A DNA stretch of 64,000 nt from Rhizobium sp. Root708 (GTDB lineage: Bacteria; Pseudomonadota; Alphaproteobacteria; Rhizobiales; Rhizobiaceae). Positions within the stretch are counted from its first letter, which is position 1. Each line of letters starts with the position of its first letter. Location of the stretch: positions 265,825-329,824 of the forward strand of contig NZ_LMHV01000040.1 in the NCBI RefSeq assembly GCF_001429725.1. The letters are read 5' to 3'. Positions 6,892 to 44,271 of this stretch are shown here, piece after piece. The translations under genes were made by a program, and so were the position numbers. Under the pieces are notes generated by a model that worked only from the letters and a program-made list of their open reading frames with translations, was not told the DNA's origin and made no database searches.

Positions 6892-6993
6892 CCGCCCCTC
6901 CTCCGGGTCAGCCAGTCTGTCGCAGGTCCTCCCCTGCCCAGCCCGAGCACTCAGTCAAAGCTTTTTGGAAAAGCCGCTCCCCCGAAGCCGCGC

Positions 6994-7218
6994 TTAGCGC
7001 AGCAGGACGAGGCCCGCGATGAAAACCGCCAACATCACGACGATACCGCCGAGGAAGCCGGCGCCGGTGAAGAAGCCCGCCGCCATGCCAACCAGGAGAG
7101 CGACCAGGAACAACGTGCCGTACTTCGCAGCCGCGAGGAACATGTTGTAGGTGTGCTCATGTTCCTTGTAGTCCATCGGCGCGCCAACTTCGGCAGGTCC
7201 GGTGTTATGCTCGGCCAT
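6994..7218 (-). CDS. Small aa3-type cytochrome c oxidase subunit IV-like membrane protein
   Basis: From the ATG at 7218 this is a 74-residue protein with a short hydrophilic N-terminus containing YKEHEHTYNMFL, then two hydrophobic segments. This pattern is that of the bacterial aa3 oxidase subunit IV family (COX4_pro_2). The longer in-frame reading upstream runs through intergenic DNA and is rejected. It lies directly upstream of pntAA on the same strand and may share its transcript. Its function with transhydrogenase rather than oxidase is unknown. Confidence 0.8.
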   Translation of the reverse strand: MAEHNTGPAEVGAPMDYKEHEHTYNMFLAAAKYGTLFLVALLVGMAAGFFTGAGFLGGIVVMLAVFIAGLVLLR

Positions 7219-7337
7219 GAATATCGTCTCCCTCATAATATCAAGCGCATGGCCTCGGCCATAACAGTCATGATTCCTCGATCCCACGAGGAAAATTCCC
7301 TTGAGAGGGATTACACAAAGCCTTGGGAAAGCGCAAT

Positions 7338-7373
7338 GCATGAGAATGCCGCAGCGGGACGGCATTCTCATGC
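7338..7373. terminator. Strong hairpin between the COX IV-like gene and the acyl-amino-acid synthase
   Basis: GCATGAGAATGCCG and CGGCATTCTCATGC form a perfect 14-bp stem with an 8-base loop, 17 bases beyond the stop of the minus-strand synthase gene. There is no clean U-run, so it may also work as an RNA 3' stabiliser. Confidence 0.6.
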
Positions 7374-7389
7374 AATTCAGTGCATCGGA

Positions 7390-26296: not shown

Positions 26297-27430
26297 TCAG
26301 ATGATGTAGGCCTTCAGCGGCTCGAAGCCGTTGAACGCGACCGCCGAATAGGTGGTCGTGTAGGCACCGGTGCCTTCGATCAGGATCTCGTCGCCGATCG
26401 AAAGGGTGAGCGGCAGCGGGTAGAGATTCTTCTCGTATAGCACGTCGGCCGAGTCGCAGGTCGGGCCGGCGATGACGCAGGGTTCCATTTCGTCGCCGTC
26501 GCGCTCGGTGCGGATCGGGTAACGAATGGCTTCGTCCATCGTTTCGGCCAGACCGCCGAACTTGCCGATGTCGAGGAACACCCAGCGAGCGGCGTCGTTG
26601 TCCGACTTCTTCGAGATCAGCACGACTTCCGTCTTGATGACGCCGGCGTTGCCGACCATGCCGCGGCCCGGCTCGATGATCGTCTTCGGCAGGTTGTTGC
26701 CGAAGTGGTCACGAAGGCTCTGGTAGATCGCACGACCGTAAGCTTCCGCCGACGGAACGTCGCGCAGGTACTTGGTCGGGAAGCCGCCGCCCATGTTGAC
26801 CATCTGCAAGTGAATGCCCTGCTTGGCCAACTGAACGAACACGCGCTTGGCATCGGCAAGAGCCGAATCCCAGGCATCGACCTTGGTCATCTGCGAACCG
26901 ACGTGGAACGAGACGCCGTAGGACTCGAGGCCGAGCTGGTGAGCGTAGACGAGAACGTCGACGGCCATCTGCGGCACGCAGCCGAACTTGCGCGACAGCG
27001 GCCATTCGGCGCCTTCGCCATCGGTGAGGACGCGGCAGAATACGCGGGCGCCAGGAGCGGCGCGGCCGATCTTCTCGACTTCCTCGTGGCTGTCGACCGC
27101 AAAGAGGCTGACGCCGAGCGCATGCGCGCGGGCAACGTCGCGTTCCTTCTTGATCGTGTTGCCGAAGGAGATGCGGGCAGCGGTCGCACCGGCGTTGAGC
27201 GCCATTTCGATTTCAGCGACGGACGCGCAATCGAAGTTGGAGCCCATGTCGGCGAGCAGCTTCAGGACTTCTGGAGCCGGGTTTGCCTTGACGGCATAGT
27301 AGATGGCGCTATCCGGCATGGCGTGACGGAAAGCGGAGAAGTTGTCACGCACGACGTCGAGGTCGACCACGAGGCAGGGACCGTCGGGACGTCGGGTTGC
27401 GAGAAAGTCGCGGATGCGCTGGGTGGTCAT
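26297..27430 (-). CDS. odc2: PLP-dependent lysine/ornithine decarboxylase (fold III)
   Basis: From the ATG at 27430 the protein is 377 residues, close to other alphaproteobacterial lysine/ornithine decarboxylases such as S. meliloti Odc2. The PLP lysine is in IYYAVKANPAPEV near residue 50, the phosphate-binding glycines in NMGGGFPT and IEPGRGMVGNAG, and the active-site Cys in GPTCDSADVLYE. It makes putrescine or cadaverine in the cytoplasm. The gene has an unusually long, structured 5' leader, which suggests RNA-level control by a polyamine or ornithine signal. Confidence 0.92.
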   Translation of the reverse strand: MTTQRIRDFLATRRPDGPCLVVDLDVVRDNFSAFRHAMPDSAIYYAVKANPAPEVLKLLADMGSNFDCASVAEIEMALNAGATAARISFGNTIKKERDVARAHALGVSLFAVDSHEEVEKIGRAAPGARVFCRVLTDGEGAEWPLSRKFGCVPQMAVDVLVYAHQLGLESYGVSFHVGSQMTKVDAWDSALADAKRVFVQLAKQGIHLQMVNMGGGFPTKYLRDVPSAEAYGRAIYQSLRDHFGNNLPKTIIEPGRGMVGNAGVIKTEVVLISKKSDNDAARWVFLDIGKFGGLAETMDEAIRYPIRTERDGDEMEPCVIAGPTCDSADVLYEKNLYPLPLTLSIGDEILIEGTGAYTTTYSAVAFNGFEPLKAYII

Positions 27431-27838
27431 ATCGATTCCCTTTTCCAATTCCAGAGCTCCGGAAAAACCGGAGGACAAAGGGCAATCAATCGCTCGCATA
27501 GGAACCAGCCGGTGGAGACCCCGGAACCTTAGCAAGCGCTTGATAGCGCGAATGATGAATCAACGCCGCGAAAGCGACATGGATCCGGCTTTGTCTGCCA
27601 TGGATTGGAGGGGGTTCCCTACCGCACTTCCGGCAATGAAGGTGTGCCTCTTCAGTAACCCCCGCTGATGGAAAGCAGGGAGAGAACAAAAAGGCCCGCA
27701 CCGTCGTTGCTTCAGGCGTCCTCGCATTTTCCGGTTGGCCGGAATAGCGACTGGAGGGGTTAATTCCAGGTACCTTACCGATTTCCTCACCAATTCGAGG
27801 GTTCGGCGGACACCCATGGGCACGTGCGACTTTGGGCT
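27431..27838 (-). ncRNA. Long structured mRNA leader of the decarboxylase gene (candidate speF-type element)
   Basis: No convincing gene lies between the decarboxylase and the divergent LysR gene. A possible minus-strand promoter is TTGATT (27873-27868), 17 bases, then TATCTC (27850-27845), which would give a leader of about 400 bases. The leader ends with a hairpin CTCCGG-TTTTT-CCGGAG (about 27460-27476) shortly before the ribosome site AAAAGGGAAT. A conserved leader of this kind, the speF motif, is known before alphaproteobacterial ornithine decarboxylase genes; assignment here rests on position and length. Confidence 0.55.
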
Positions 27839-32736: not shown

Positions 32737-33225
32737 ATGGCGAAAGAGATCGAGCGGAAGTTTCTTGTACGCAACGACGGCTGGCGCTCCGGAGCCAAGG
32801 CAAAATCCATTTTGAAACAAGGCTATATCGCCTCGATGGACGACCGCTCGGTGCGTGTGCGCGTGCTCGACAATGAAAAGGCCAGGCTGACGATCAAGAT
32901 CGGCCGCAGCGCCATGACGCGCGACGAATTCGAATACGCTATTCCCGTTGTCGACGCCGAACAGCTGCTTGGCGATGCGATCGGCATCGTGATCGAAAAG
33001 ACCCGCTACCGCGTGCCGCATGAAGGCTTTGTCTGGGAAGTCGACGTCTTTGCCGGCGAGCATCGCGGACTGGTCATCGCGGAAGTGGAAATGCGTTCCG
33101 AAACCGACAAGCCGACCCTGCCTTCATGGCTCGGGCGGGAGGTTACGGGCGATTTCCGCTACTCCAACCAGGCACTTGCCACCGAATTCGAGCACGACCG
33201 GCATGCCCTTTCGAATACGGCCTGA
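32737..33225 (+). CDS. CYTH-domain protein (class IV cyclase/triphosphatase fold)
   Basis: A 162-residue protein beginning MAKEIERKFLV, which holds the ExExK signature, followed by alternating charged strands of the triphosphate tunnel: VRVRVLDNEKARLTIKIG, and E-V-D-V-F and I-A-E-V-E-M-R. Such proteins hydrolyse inorganic triphosphate or related compounds, or form the class IV adenylate cyclases. Its last 23 bases overlap the start of a CHAD gene, a frequent partnership linked to polyphosphate. Confidence 0.92.
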   Translation: MAKEIERKFLVRNDGWRSGAKAKSILKQGYIASMDDRSVRVRVLDNEKARLTIKIGRSAMTRDEFEYAIPVVDAEQLLGDAIGIVIEKTRYRVPHEGFVWEVDVFAGEHRGLVIAEVEMRSETDKPTLPSWLGREVTGDFRYSNQALATEFEHDRHALSNTA

Positions 33226-34111
33226 CCGGGGCTTCACCGCTGAGTTCAGGCGGTCCGTAGACGGATAGCTTTGTCATGCAATCCACTCGCTCGAGAAAAA
33301 ACCGGACGGCTTGCACGAGGCCATTCACGCTTTCCGCAAGAATCTGAAACGCCTGCGATCGCTCTATCGCCTGGTTGCTGATGAAATCCCGGAGTTCCGT
33401 GAGCAGGAAAACCGGCGCCTGCGCGACGTTGGAAAATCGCTTTCGGCGATCCGGGACGCGACGGCTCTGATCGAAACCGCCAGGCATCTTCAGGATCGCG
33501 CGCGCGACACCGAGGAAGCCGACGCAGTGAGCCGGGTAATTTCGGCGCTCACCACCCGGCGCGACGCAATGGCCAAGGCTGAAGCCGGTATGGCGCCAAG
33601 GCTGGCCGGCGCCCTCGAACAGCTGCGACAGGCAGCCCATGCGGTCGAGGACGTCCATTTCAACGGCGGCCCGCGACGGCACGGCCGGCTTCTGGCAAAG
33701 GGTTGGCGCAAGACCGCGACGAAGGCCAGGGAGGCGATGGCGCATTGCCAGGCTGATCGGTCCGCGGAAGCCTTTCACGATTTGCGCAAGCGCGCTCAGG
33801 ACTACCGCGCCTATCACATGCTGCTCAAGCCGCTCTGGCCGGCAGCGATGGAGGCGAAGTATGAGGTCATCAGCAGCCTGATCGACCTGCTCGGCGAAAT
33901 CCATGACCTCGATGTGCTGTGCGAACTCGTGGAAGCCGAACCCAAGCACTTTCCCGATGCCGACGATCTCGCGCATCTGCTCGACGCCATCATTTTCCGG
34001 CAGCAGGAAGCCCGGGCAGCGGCATTGGACCGCGCGAAAGATGTTTTCGCCGACGATCCGGATGACGAGGCCAGCCGGATCGAGCTGCTCTGGCAGGCGC
34101 AATCGCGCTGA
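33203..34111 (+). pseudogene. CHAD-domain gene interrupted by an in-frame amber codon
   Basis: The natural start is the ATG at 33203 (MPFRIRPDRGFTAEFRRS), overlapping the CYTH gene. Codon 22 is TAG (33266-33268). The frame then continues unbroken for 280 codons with a conserved CHAD sequence: LCHAIHSLEKKPDG, HEAIHAFRKNLKRLRSLYR and, later, AFHDLRKRAQDYRAYHMLLKPLW, with the His/Arg/Lys-rich helices that bind polyphosphate. A CAG to TAG change would explain it. A shorter product from TTG at 33311 is possible but lacks a clear ribosome site. Confidence 0.8.
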
Positions 34112-34157: not shown

Positions 34158-35099
34158 ATGACAGACACGCTGACACAACCGACGTCTGCGACGAGCCCCT
34201 TCCTCGTTGCGGCTCTCTACCATTTCGTTTCCGTCCCGCGCTTCGAAAGCCTGCGCGAGCCGTTGCAGACGCTTTGCGAGGAAAACGGCGTGAAGGGCAC
34301 GCTGCTTCTGGCGCATGAGGGGATCAACGGCACGATCGGCGGCCCGGATGCCGGCATCAGGACCGTGCTCGCGTTTCTGCGCGCCCAGCCGGAATTTGCC
34401 GCGCTCGAGCACAAGGAAAGCCGCGCATCGAAGATGCCTTTCCTGCGCATGAAGGTGAAGCTCAAGAAAGAGATCGTCACCATGGGCGTCGAGAACATCG
34501 ACCCCAACCAGGTGGTCGGCACCTATGTCGCGCCCCAGGACTGGAATGCGCTGATTTCCGATCCCGATACGATCGTCATCGACACGCGCAACGACTACGA
34601 GACAGCCATCGGAATCTTCCGCGGCGCCGTCGACCCGAACACCAAGACCTTCCGCGAGTTTCCGGACTGGGTGCGGAACAATACCGGCCTGCACAACAAA
34701 CCGAAGATCGCTATGTACTGCACCGGCGGTATCCGCTGCGAGAAGGCAACCGCCTTCATGAAGGAGCAGGGCTTCGAGGAAGTTTACCACCTCAAGGGCG
34801 GCATCCTGAAATATCTCGAAGAGATCCCGCAGGAAGAAAGCCTGTGGGACGGCGCCTGCTTCGTCTTCGACGAACGCGTCTCGGTCGAACACGGCCTCAA
34901 GGAAGGCGAGCACAAGCTCTGCCACGCCTGCCGCAATCCGATCACCGCGGAAGAGATTACCTCGCCTCACTACGAGGAAGGCGTGTCCTGCAGCAACTGC
35001 TACGCCACGCGTAGCGAAGATGACCGCCTGCGTTATCGCCAGCGGCAGCACCAGATCGCGCTTGCCAAAAAGCGCGGCCAGAAGCACATCGGAACCTGA
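34158..35099 (+). CDS. trhO: tRNA uridine(34) hydroxylase
   Basis: From the ATG at 34158 this is 313 residues. An N-terminal acylphosphatase-like domain ([14 protein letters not shown]) precedes a rhodanese domain with the catalytic Cys in [16 protein letters not shown] and the ending [12 protein letters not shown] with paired Cys motifs CxxC that could bind zinc. The TrhO/YceA family carries out oxygen-dependent hydroxylation of uridine 34 in tRNA, toward 5-methoxy- or oxyacetyl-uridine. It is transcribed in the same direction as the CHAD gene, 46 bases away. Confidence 0.94.
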
Positions 35100-43290: not shown

Positions 43291-43692
43291 ATGCTCTCCT
43301 CGATCCACCTGGCGCAGCCATATCTCCTAAGCCTGCTGCGCGTCGTCTCCTCGCTCGTGCTCTTCAGCTTTGGCACGCAGAAAATCCTGCATTTTCCGGC
43401 CGCCGAACGCGTGCCCGATGTGGGCTCCATGTCCTGGATCGCGGGCCTGCTTGAACTGACGCTCGGCTTCCTGGTGCTGGTCGGCTTCCAGACGCGCGCC
43501 GCAGCCTTCATCCTCTCGGGTCTGATGGCCTTTGCCTATTTCATCGGACATGCCTCGAAAGGCTTCTACCCGGCGCAGAACGGCGGCGTTGCCGCAATCC
43601 TGTTCTGCTTCGTCTTTTTATATCTGGTTGCCGCCGGTGGTGGTCCCTTCAGCATCGATGCGCTGATCAAGCGCAAGCAGGCAGCGGCCTGA
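43291..43692 (+). CDS. DoxX-family membrane protein
   Basis: From the ATG at 43291 (AAGGAACCCG upstream) this is 133 residues with four membrane helices: LSLLRVVSSLVLFSFGTQKILHF, SWIAGLLELTLGFLVLVGF, TRAAAFILSGLMAFAYFIGH and GVAAILFCFVFLYLVAAGGG. The G-x-x-K-x-x-x-F and E-x-x-x-G-x-x-L-x-x-G patterns are those of DoxX. Family members relate to oxidative-stress or quinone-linked membrane complexes. An upstream in-frame extension of 43 codons is charged and not DoxX-like, so I reject it. Confidence 0.9.
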   Translation: MLSSIHLAQPYLLSLLRVVSSLVLFSFGTQKILHFPAAERVPDVGSMSWIAGLLELTLGFLVLVGFQTRAAAFILSGLMAFAYFIGHASKGFYPAQNGGVAAILFCFVFLYLVAAGGGPFSIDALIKRKQAAA

Positions 43693-43705
43693 TCGATGCG
43701 CGATT

Positions 43706-43730
43706 TCGAAGCGGCGCGCTGCCGCTTCGA
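43706..43730. terminator. Hairpin between DoxX and a periplasmic protein gene
   Basis: TCGAAGCGGC-GCGCT-GCCGCTTCGA is a perfect 10-bp stem with a 5-base loop between convergent genes. There is no U-run, so termination strength is uncertain. Confidence 0.6.
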
Positions 43731-43748
43731 CCATGCAGCCGAGGACGC

Positions 43749-44147
43749 TCAGGGGTTCTGTTTGGCGTCCTTGAGCTTCACCGCCATCGTGACGGTGCCG
43801 CGCACGATGATGTCGTTGCGCGAGCCATCGCCTCGAGGATAGCGATTGAGATCGGCGGTGCTCGTAAGATTGGTGATCTGGCAACTCTCGGCAAGCGTCT
43901 GCAGAAGAAGATCGCACTGACCGCCCGCCATCAGGTAAAACCCCTTCTGGGCGGCCGTGATCTGCTCGCTGTTGTCCTTCCCGGCATCGACGGGCACCGA
44001 CAGCGAAACCGTGGTCTGCACGTTGACCATGCCTGGCATACGCTGGCCGGCGTAAAAATTCGGCATGCGATTGGGCACGTCTTGCGACAGGGTAGGAAAC
44101 GCAGCAAGCGCGAAACCGCAGGTCAGAACTTTGGCAAAAACTTTCAT
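43749..44147 (-). CDS. Small exported protein of unknown function
   Basis: From the ATG at 44147 (GGGGAGACG upstream) this is 132 residues. A signal peptide (MKVFAKVLTCGFALAAFPTLSQ) is followed by a region with two Cys (GGQCDLLLQTL and ESCQIT) that may pair in the periplasm, and a beta-rich tail ending VTMAVKLKDAKQNP. The family is not recognised. An inverted repeat lies about 55 bases upstream. Confidence 0.75.
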   Translation of the reverse strand: MKVFAKVLTCGFALAAFPTLSQDVPNRMPNFYAGQRMPGMVNVQTTVSLSVPVDAGKDNSEQITAAQKGFYLMAGGQCDLLLQTLAESCQITNLTSTADLNRYPRGDGSRNDIIVRGTVTMAVKLKDAKQNP

Positions 44148-44201
44148 CGAACGTCTCCCCATTTGGTTGCGTTCGTTTCTGCCACAGCACTGTTAAGCGA
44201 C

Positions 44202-44241
44202 AATGAGCGCACTCCCTAACATTGTAGGAAATGCGCTCATT
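44202..44241. promoter_or_regulatory. Inverted repeat AATGAGCGCA/TGCGCTCATT
   Basis: Perfect 10-base inverted arms at 44202-44211 and 44232-44241 with a 20-base loop lie between the exported-protein gene and the upstream dehydrogenase gene on the same strand. It may be a terminator for the dehydrogenase gene or a double regulator site. Confidence 0.45.
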
Positions 44242-44271
44242 AGTTGCATCAATCGGAGAGATGCACGAGGA

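Follow-up and report, generated by a model that had tools for sequence, protein, structure and literature searches.

The window, that is, the whole 64,000-nucleotide stretch of DNA analysed here, carries two overlapping genes on its forward strand. The first (32737-33225, + strand) encodes an intact CYTH-domain protein of 162 aa, which matches Pfam PF01928 with 67.5 bits against a curated cut-off of 23.2. Its residues 4-8 (EIERK) fit, by eye, the ExExK motif, which is the N-terminal motif of the CYTH or triphosphate tunnel family. The second gene of the pair is a CHAD-domain frame of 302 codons (33203-34111, + strand; Pfam PF05235) with intact orthologues in other genomes, which begins with an ATG at 33203, within the 3' end of the CYTH gene, and ends with a TGA at 34109-34111. 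An earlier note on this DNA had described the CYTH gene as intact and overlapping the start of CHAD, and both points were confirmed, the overlap being 23 nt. The main observation of that note was also reproduced: codon 22 of the frame that starts at 33203 is an in-frame TAG (33266-33268, + strand), a sense codon in 139 of 139 unbroken copies of the genus, and the frame is otherwise free of in-frame stops up to its TGA. From the normal CHAD start, a peptide of 21 residues is expected (33203-33268, + strand). The first in-frame start-type codon past the TAG is a TTG at codon 37, from which a CHAD frame of 266 codons can be read (33311-34111, + strand). The downstream neighbour, used as a locus marker, encodes TrhO, a tRNA uridine hydroxylase of the rhodanese type (34158-35099, + strand; NCBIfam NF001133, 338.9 bits with a cut-off of 170). 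A scan for promoters and terminators gave no match at the CYTH-CHAD locus.

When the interrupted frame was aligned with the intact protein of a close relative (G025), 20 of the 21 residues before the stop and 250 of the 280 residues after it were identical. As the identity carries on past the stop, a chance reading frame was ruled out. The Pfam PF05235 match reached 96.5 bits when read from the TTG at 33311 and 97.0 bits when read through the TAG, against a curated cut-off of 25.6. Two statements of the earlier note stood in part. It had counted 280 codons before and after the stop, of which the 280 following it were found, but only 21 precede it; and it had called the pair broken, which holds for the interrupted CHAD but not for CYTH, which is intact, and a second, intact CYTH-CHAD fusion is present elsewhere in the genome.

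According to PMC6537752, CHAD domains are polyphosphate-binding helical modules; some share one protein with a TTM/CYTH domain, and others stand alone and are often encoded in operons with polyphosphate enzymes. PMC10892726 describes CHAD activity past polyphosphate binding as unknown. The window CHAD belongs to the same Pfam family (PF05235) as the stand-alone CHADs encoded beside polyphosphate enzymes (Lorenzo-Orts et al., 2019, PMC6537752). It is also similar to them in having about 300 residues, which makes it a 'long' type by length, and in adjoining a CYTH/TTM gene. It differs from them in the interruption at codon 22, and polyphosphate binding, known for characterised members of the family, is putative for the window CHAD.

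Codon 22 was compared among related genomes of the genus, the window species itself being represented by one assembly. The nearest copies, those of G025 (89% identical) and G120 (88%), are both open over 302 codons with glutamine at codon 22. Among the 139 unbroken genus copies, the residue at this position was glutamine in 133, glutamate in four and histidine in two, and a stop was present in none. In a seven-taxon tree the window was sister to G025 plus G120 and, therefore, the stop arose most simply on the window's own branch. The stop is conserved in none of the 139 relatives, contrary to what would be expected of a recoded gene, and the combination found, a disabling change in a gene that close relatives have in intact form, is that of a recent pseudogene. 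The absence of TAG from all the unbroken copies argues against a conserved readthrough or reinitiation, both of which the earlier note had left as alternatives.

The selection acting on the CHAD gene was estimated with a codon model of the same seven taxa. Over the whole tree, CYTH was more tightly constrained (dN/dS = 0.055) than CHAD (dN/dS = 0.115). On the window branch of the CHAD tree dN/dS was 0.136 compared to 0.114 elsewhere, with no difference between them (2dlnL 0.17), the profile interval being about 0.06-0.37 and a value of 1 being rejected (2dlnL 7.9). Apart from the stop, the window has two private changes at 165 sites that are invariant in eight relatives, a number not raised with respect to the two sister branches (1 at 163 sites and 5 at 167 sites). 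Neither the relaxed selection nor the further lesions of an ageing pseudogene were found, as there is also no second stop. Given purifying selection on the window branch, the lesion, if real, is recent; if CHAD has been unconstrained since the stop appeared, this phase takes up no more than about 29% of the length of the branch. A very young lesion would give such a dN/dS value, and so, just as well, would a base error or a gene that still functions. With the nearest relatives open at this codon, the suggestion that the lesion is recent in an otherwise conserved CHAD gene is apparently right.

The CYTH-CHAD locus was then measured in both frames in 148 genomes of the genus. CYTH was open in all 148 (152-163 aa); stops flagged in the CYTH genes of G144 and G089 lie at the C-terminus, and these genes were counted as intact. 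A CHAD match was present in 144 of the 148 genomes searched, and the adjacent CHAD was broken or gone in nine. In addition to the nonsense codon of the window genome (G000), these include a frame break in G052, frame breaks plus stops in G068 and G139, a missing N-terminal part in G085 and a match limited to residues 1-59 in G086, whose genome is 73% complete. In the remaining three (G064, G065 and G145) there was no CHAD match and TrhO follows CYTH after about 100 nt. From the tree and the differing lesions, the nine losses represent about seven events, although node support was low around G085 and G086 (0.375 and 0.567) and some of the frame breaks, coming from draft assemblies, may be errors. 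The sparing of CYTH in some seven events carries modest weight, since CHAD makes up about 65% of the length of the pair and 0.65^7 is about 0.05. Nine genomes of the genus lack an unbroken CHAD at this locus and all 148 have an intact CYTH, so the two genes do not form an obligate pair there. The literature search did not find a description of CHAD gene loss in rhizobia.

A CHAD product could still be made in spite of the stop if ribosomes re-initiated at the TTG at 33311, 42 nt past the TAG, to yield a working protein of 266 residues without its first helix. The position of this TTG as the first in-frame candidate would suit such a restart, as would the facts that the Pfam-scored CHAD region lies almost wholly downstream of it and that the codons there are conserved. 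However, its anti-Shine-Dalgarno energy (-3.0) is near the background (median -2.5), and two out-of-frame starts, TTG 33271 and ATG 33276, are nearer to the TAG. Moreover, 17 of the 139 unbroken copies also have this TTG, as do both of the nearest intact relatives; in them it is an ordinary internal codon and, thus, it did not arise as a start. A protein begun there would also start past the first helix, predicted at residues 9-32 in a low-confidence model. The CHAD family is characterised by two four-helix bundles; the AlphaFold model of the window CHAD, built on a three-row alignment, was all-helical and poor (pLDDT 44.5, pTM 0.33), and the 266-residue part matched no PDB sequence at E 0.001. 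A dedicated restart at this codon was regarded as improbable. Amber readthrough or suppression would instead produce a full-length CHAD, and the frame is indeed open and conserved on either side of the TAG. Against this, no CUA anticodon was detected among the 45 tRNAs typed with ARAGORN, a set that is incomplete (it has no isoleucine tRNA, and two Rfam tRNA matches out of 47, both partial, went untyped), and none of the 139 unbroken copies has the TAG, making readthrough highly improbable.

It is also conceivable, though unlikely, that a sense codon truly occupies 33266-33268 and that CHAD is normal, the TAG being a sequencing or assembly error. The base rests on a single assembly of 44 contigs (genome of 6.29 Mb), and the purifying selection detected on the window branch is the expectation for an intact gene, for which the selection result would be the same. 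The state of the other genes in the window speaks against such an error. The comparison took in the 56 ORFs of G025 of at least 100 aa that have a window counterpart. A stop or low coverage singled out 12 of them in addition to CHAD, but most of these were explained by over-extended starts, shadow frames or a conserved RNA leader, and no clear gene other than CHAD contained an internal stop. As no other clear gene of the window is broken with respect to G025, two ambiguous stretches aside, the assembly appears clean there. In addition, the gene affected is the same one that is broken or gone in eight other genomes of the genus. The two ambiguous stretches, at 43483-44253 and 6943-7389, contain overlapping ORFs poorly conserved with respect to G025 and no clear gene.

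The TAG is thus probably a real and recent nonsense mutation by which this Rhizobium-type genome lost the function of its stand-alone CHAD gene, one half of a split CYTH/CHAD pair. We regard it as an ordinary loss-of-function mutation of recent date, in a partner gene that is lost recurrently. Translation from the normal CHAD start would end after the 21-residue peptide, leaving the CYTH reading frame untouched, and CHAD protein would no longer be produced in useful amounts. Such a loss would be tolerated if CHAD is more easily dispensed with than CYTH, as seems to be the case, and the fusion encoded elsewhere in the genome may account for this tolerance by supplying a CHAD domain. As a likely consequence, the CYTH enzyme would lack the polyphosphate-binding partner encoded at its own locus. 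The gene is similar to other recent single-nonsense pseudogenes in having one stop, an otherwise open frame, intact relatives and no accumulated decay, and differs from them in that its locus repeatedly loses the same partner within the genus while the neighbour is kept.

The second CHAD of the window genome is part of an intact CYTH-CHAD fusion of 483 residues located on another contig (G000:C4:193735-195183), with both Pfam domains within one frame. Its structure matches include the E. coli inorganic triphosphatase 5a60/5a61, the best being the CHAD structure 6qv5. The protein is therefore alike to the fusion triphosphatase YgiF of E. coli (PDB 5a60/5a61; E 9.6e-19 for 5a60), whereas the window locus differs from YgiF-type fusions in having both domains as separate overlapping genes. 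The fusions of G132, G114 and G119 share 85-87% identity with that of the window genome, although the CYTH and CHAD of these three reach only 81-83% and 55-57%, respectively, when compared with those of the window. In two nearer species, G048 and G081, CYTH (90-91%) and CHAD (69-73%) are closer to those of the window, yet the identity of their fusions to that of the window genome is only 61% and 50%. No fusion match was obtained in G025 and G120. The fusion region is common to G132 and G119 over about 3 kb and to G114 over about 1.6 kb, and the adjoining genes for a NUDIX protein and a PHB-depolymerase-type esterase are common to G132 and G119. A search for repC gave matches on contigs other than that of the fusion. 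As the identities of the fusions conflict with the relations of the species, horizontal acquisition is suggested, and in the simplest reading of these comparisons between sequences the fusion would have been acquired horizontally on the window lineage. A further short CYTH protein of 136 aa was also detected in this genome (G000:C43:397259-397636); over 126 residues it shares 53% identity with the CYTH of the window.

An intact fusion was present in 47 of the 148 genus genomes, where G116 was scored as having no intact fusion, since there are two stops in its match, and G102, with a match only 30% identical, as fusion-bearing. The match was partial or had stops in G003, G094, G116, G127 and G134. 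Both CHAD types seem to have been gained and lost in the genus. The intact fusion accompanied a broken CHAD in eight of eight near-complete genomes, compared to 39 of the 139 with an unbroken CHAD (Fisher 7e-5, post hoc, as the link with the fusion was noticed first and tested later). This count leaves out G086, in which no fusion was found; when it was entered as a miss, the Fisher value was 4.5e-4. Counted per event, and with fusion-bearing lineages making up 0.286 of the terminal branch length, the probability was 5.5e-4 for six of six events and 0.003 for six of seven; for the events on tips alone, it was 0.002 for five of five and 0.009 for five of six.

The same association was examined at the family level in a sample of 151 genomes, 75 of them outside the genus and with CYTH, in which absence of CHAD means a search miss. 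A full-length fusion was found in 3 of 10 genomes without a CHAD match and in 6 of 65 with one, which is the same direction but not significant (p=0.09). The proportions were 2/10 vs. 4/65 for the closer fusion orthologues only (p=0.18) and 4/10 vs. 7/65 when partial fusion matches were added (p=0.03), and six of the ten CHAD-less genomes had no fusion match of any kind. Regarding selection, estimated here with fixed tree branch lengths, the intact CHADs of the 39 fusion-bearing tips were not relaxed compared to those of the 100 other tips (dN/dS 0.106 vs. 0.119, 2dlnL 3.28), and the CYTH control gave 0.082 vs. 0.070 (2dlnL 2.01).

It may be that a horizontally spreading CYTH-CHAD fusion makes the resident CHAD expendable, which then decays once the fusion has arrived, whereas a separate role preserves the resident CYTH. 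Such a displacement is a tentative and rather doubtful explanation and, given that neither the family-level sample nor the selection test gives it backing, it is put forward as a lead and not as a result. If true, the window would show one replacement just past its first mutation. The TAG alone is an ordinary young nonsense mutation, and the surrounding comparison is the more useful part, as genomes without the stand-alone CHAD, beside relatives that have it, constitute natural deletion strains for CHAD function.

Elsewhere in the window, two RNA families were matched on the - strand, a speF leader (27526-27681, Rfam RF00518) and, adjoining it, the sRNA ar45 (27690-27837, RF02347), both upstream of a decarboxylase-type gene (26297-27535, - strand) whose own matches fall below the curated cut-offs. 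The DNA of this region (27526-27837) is near-identical among the window genome, G025 and G120.
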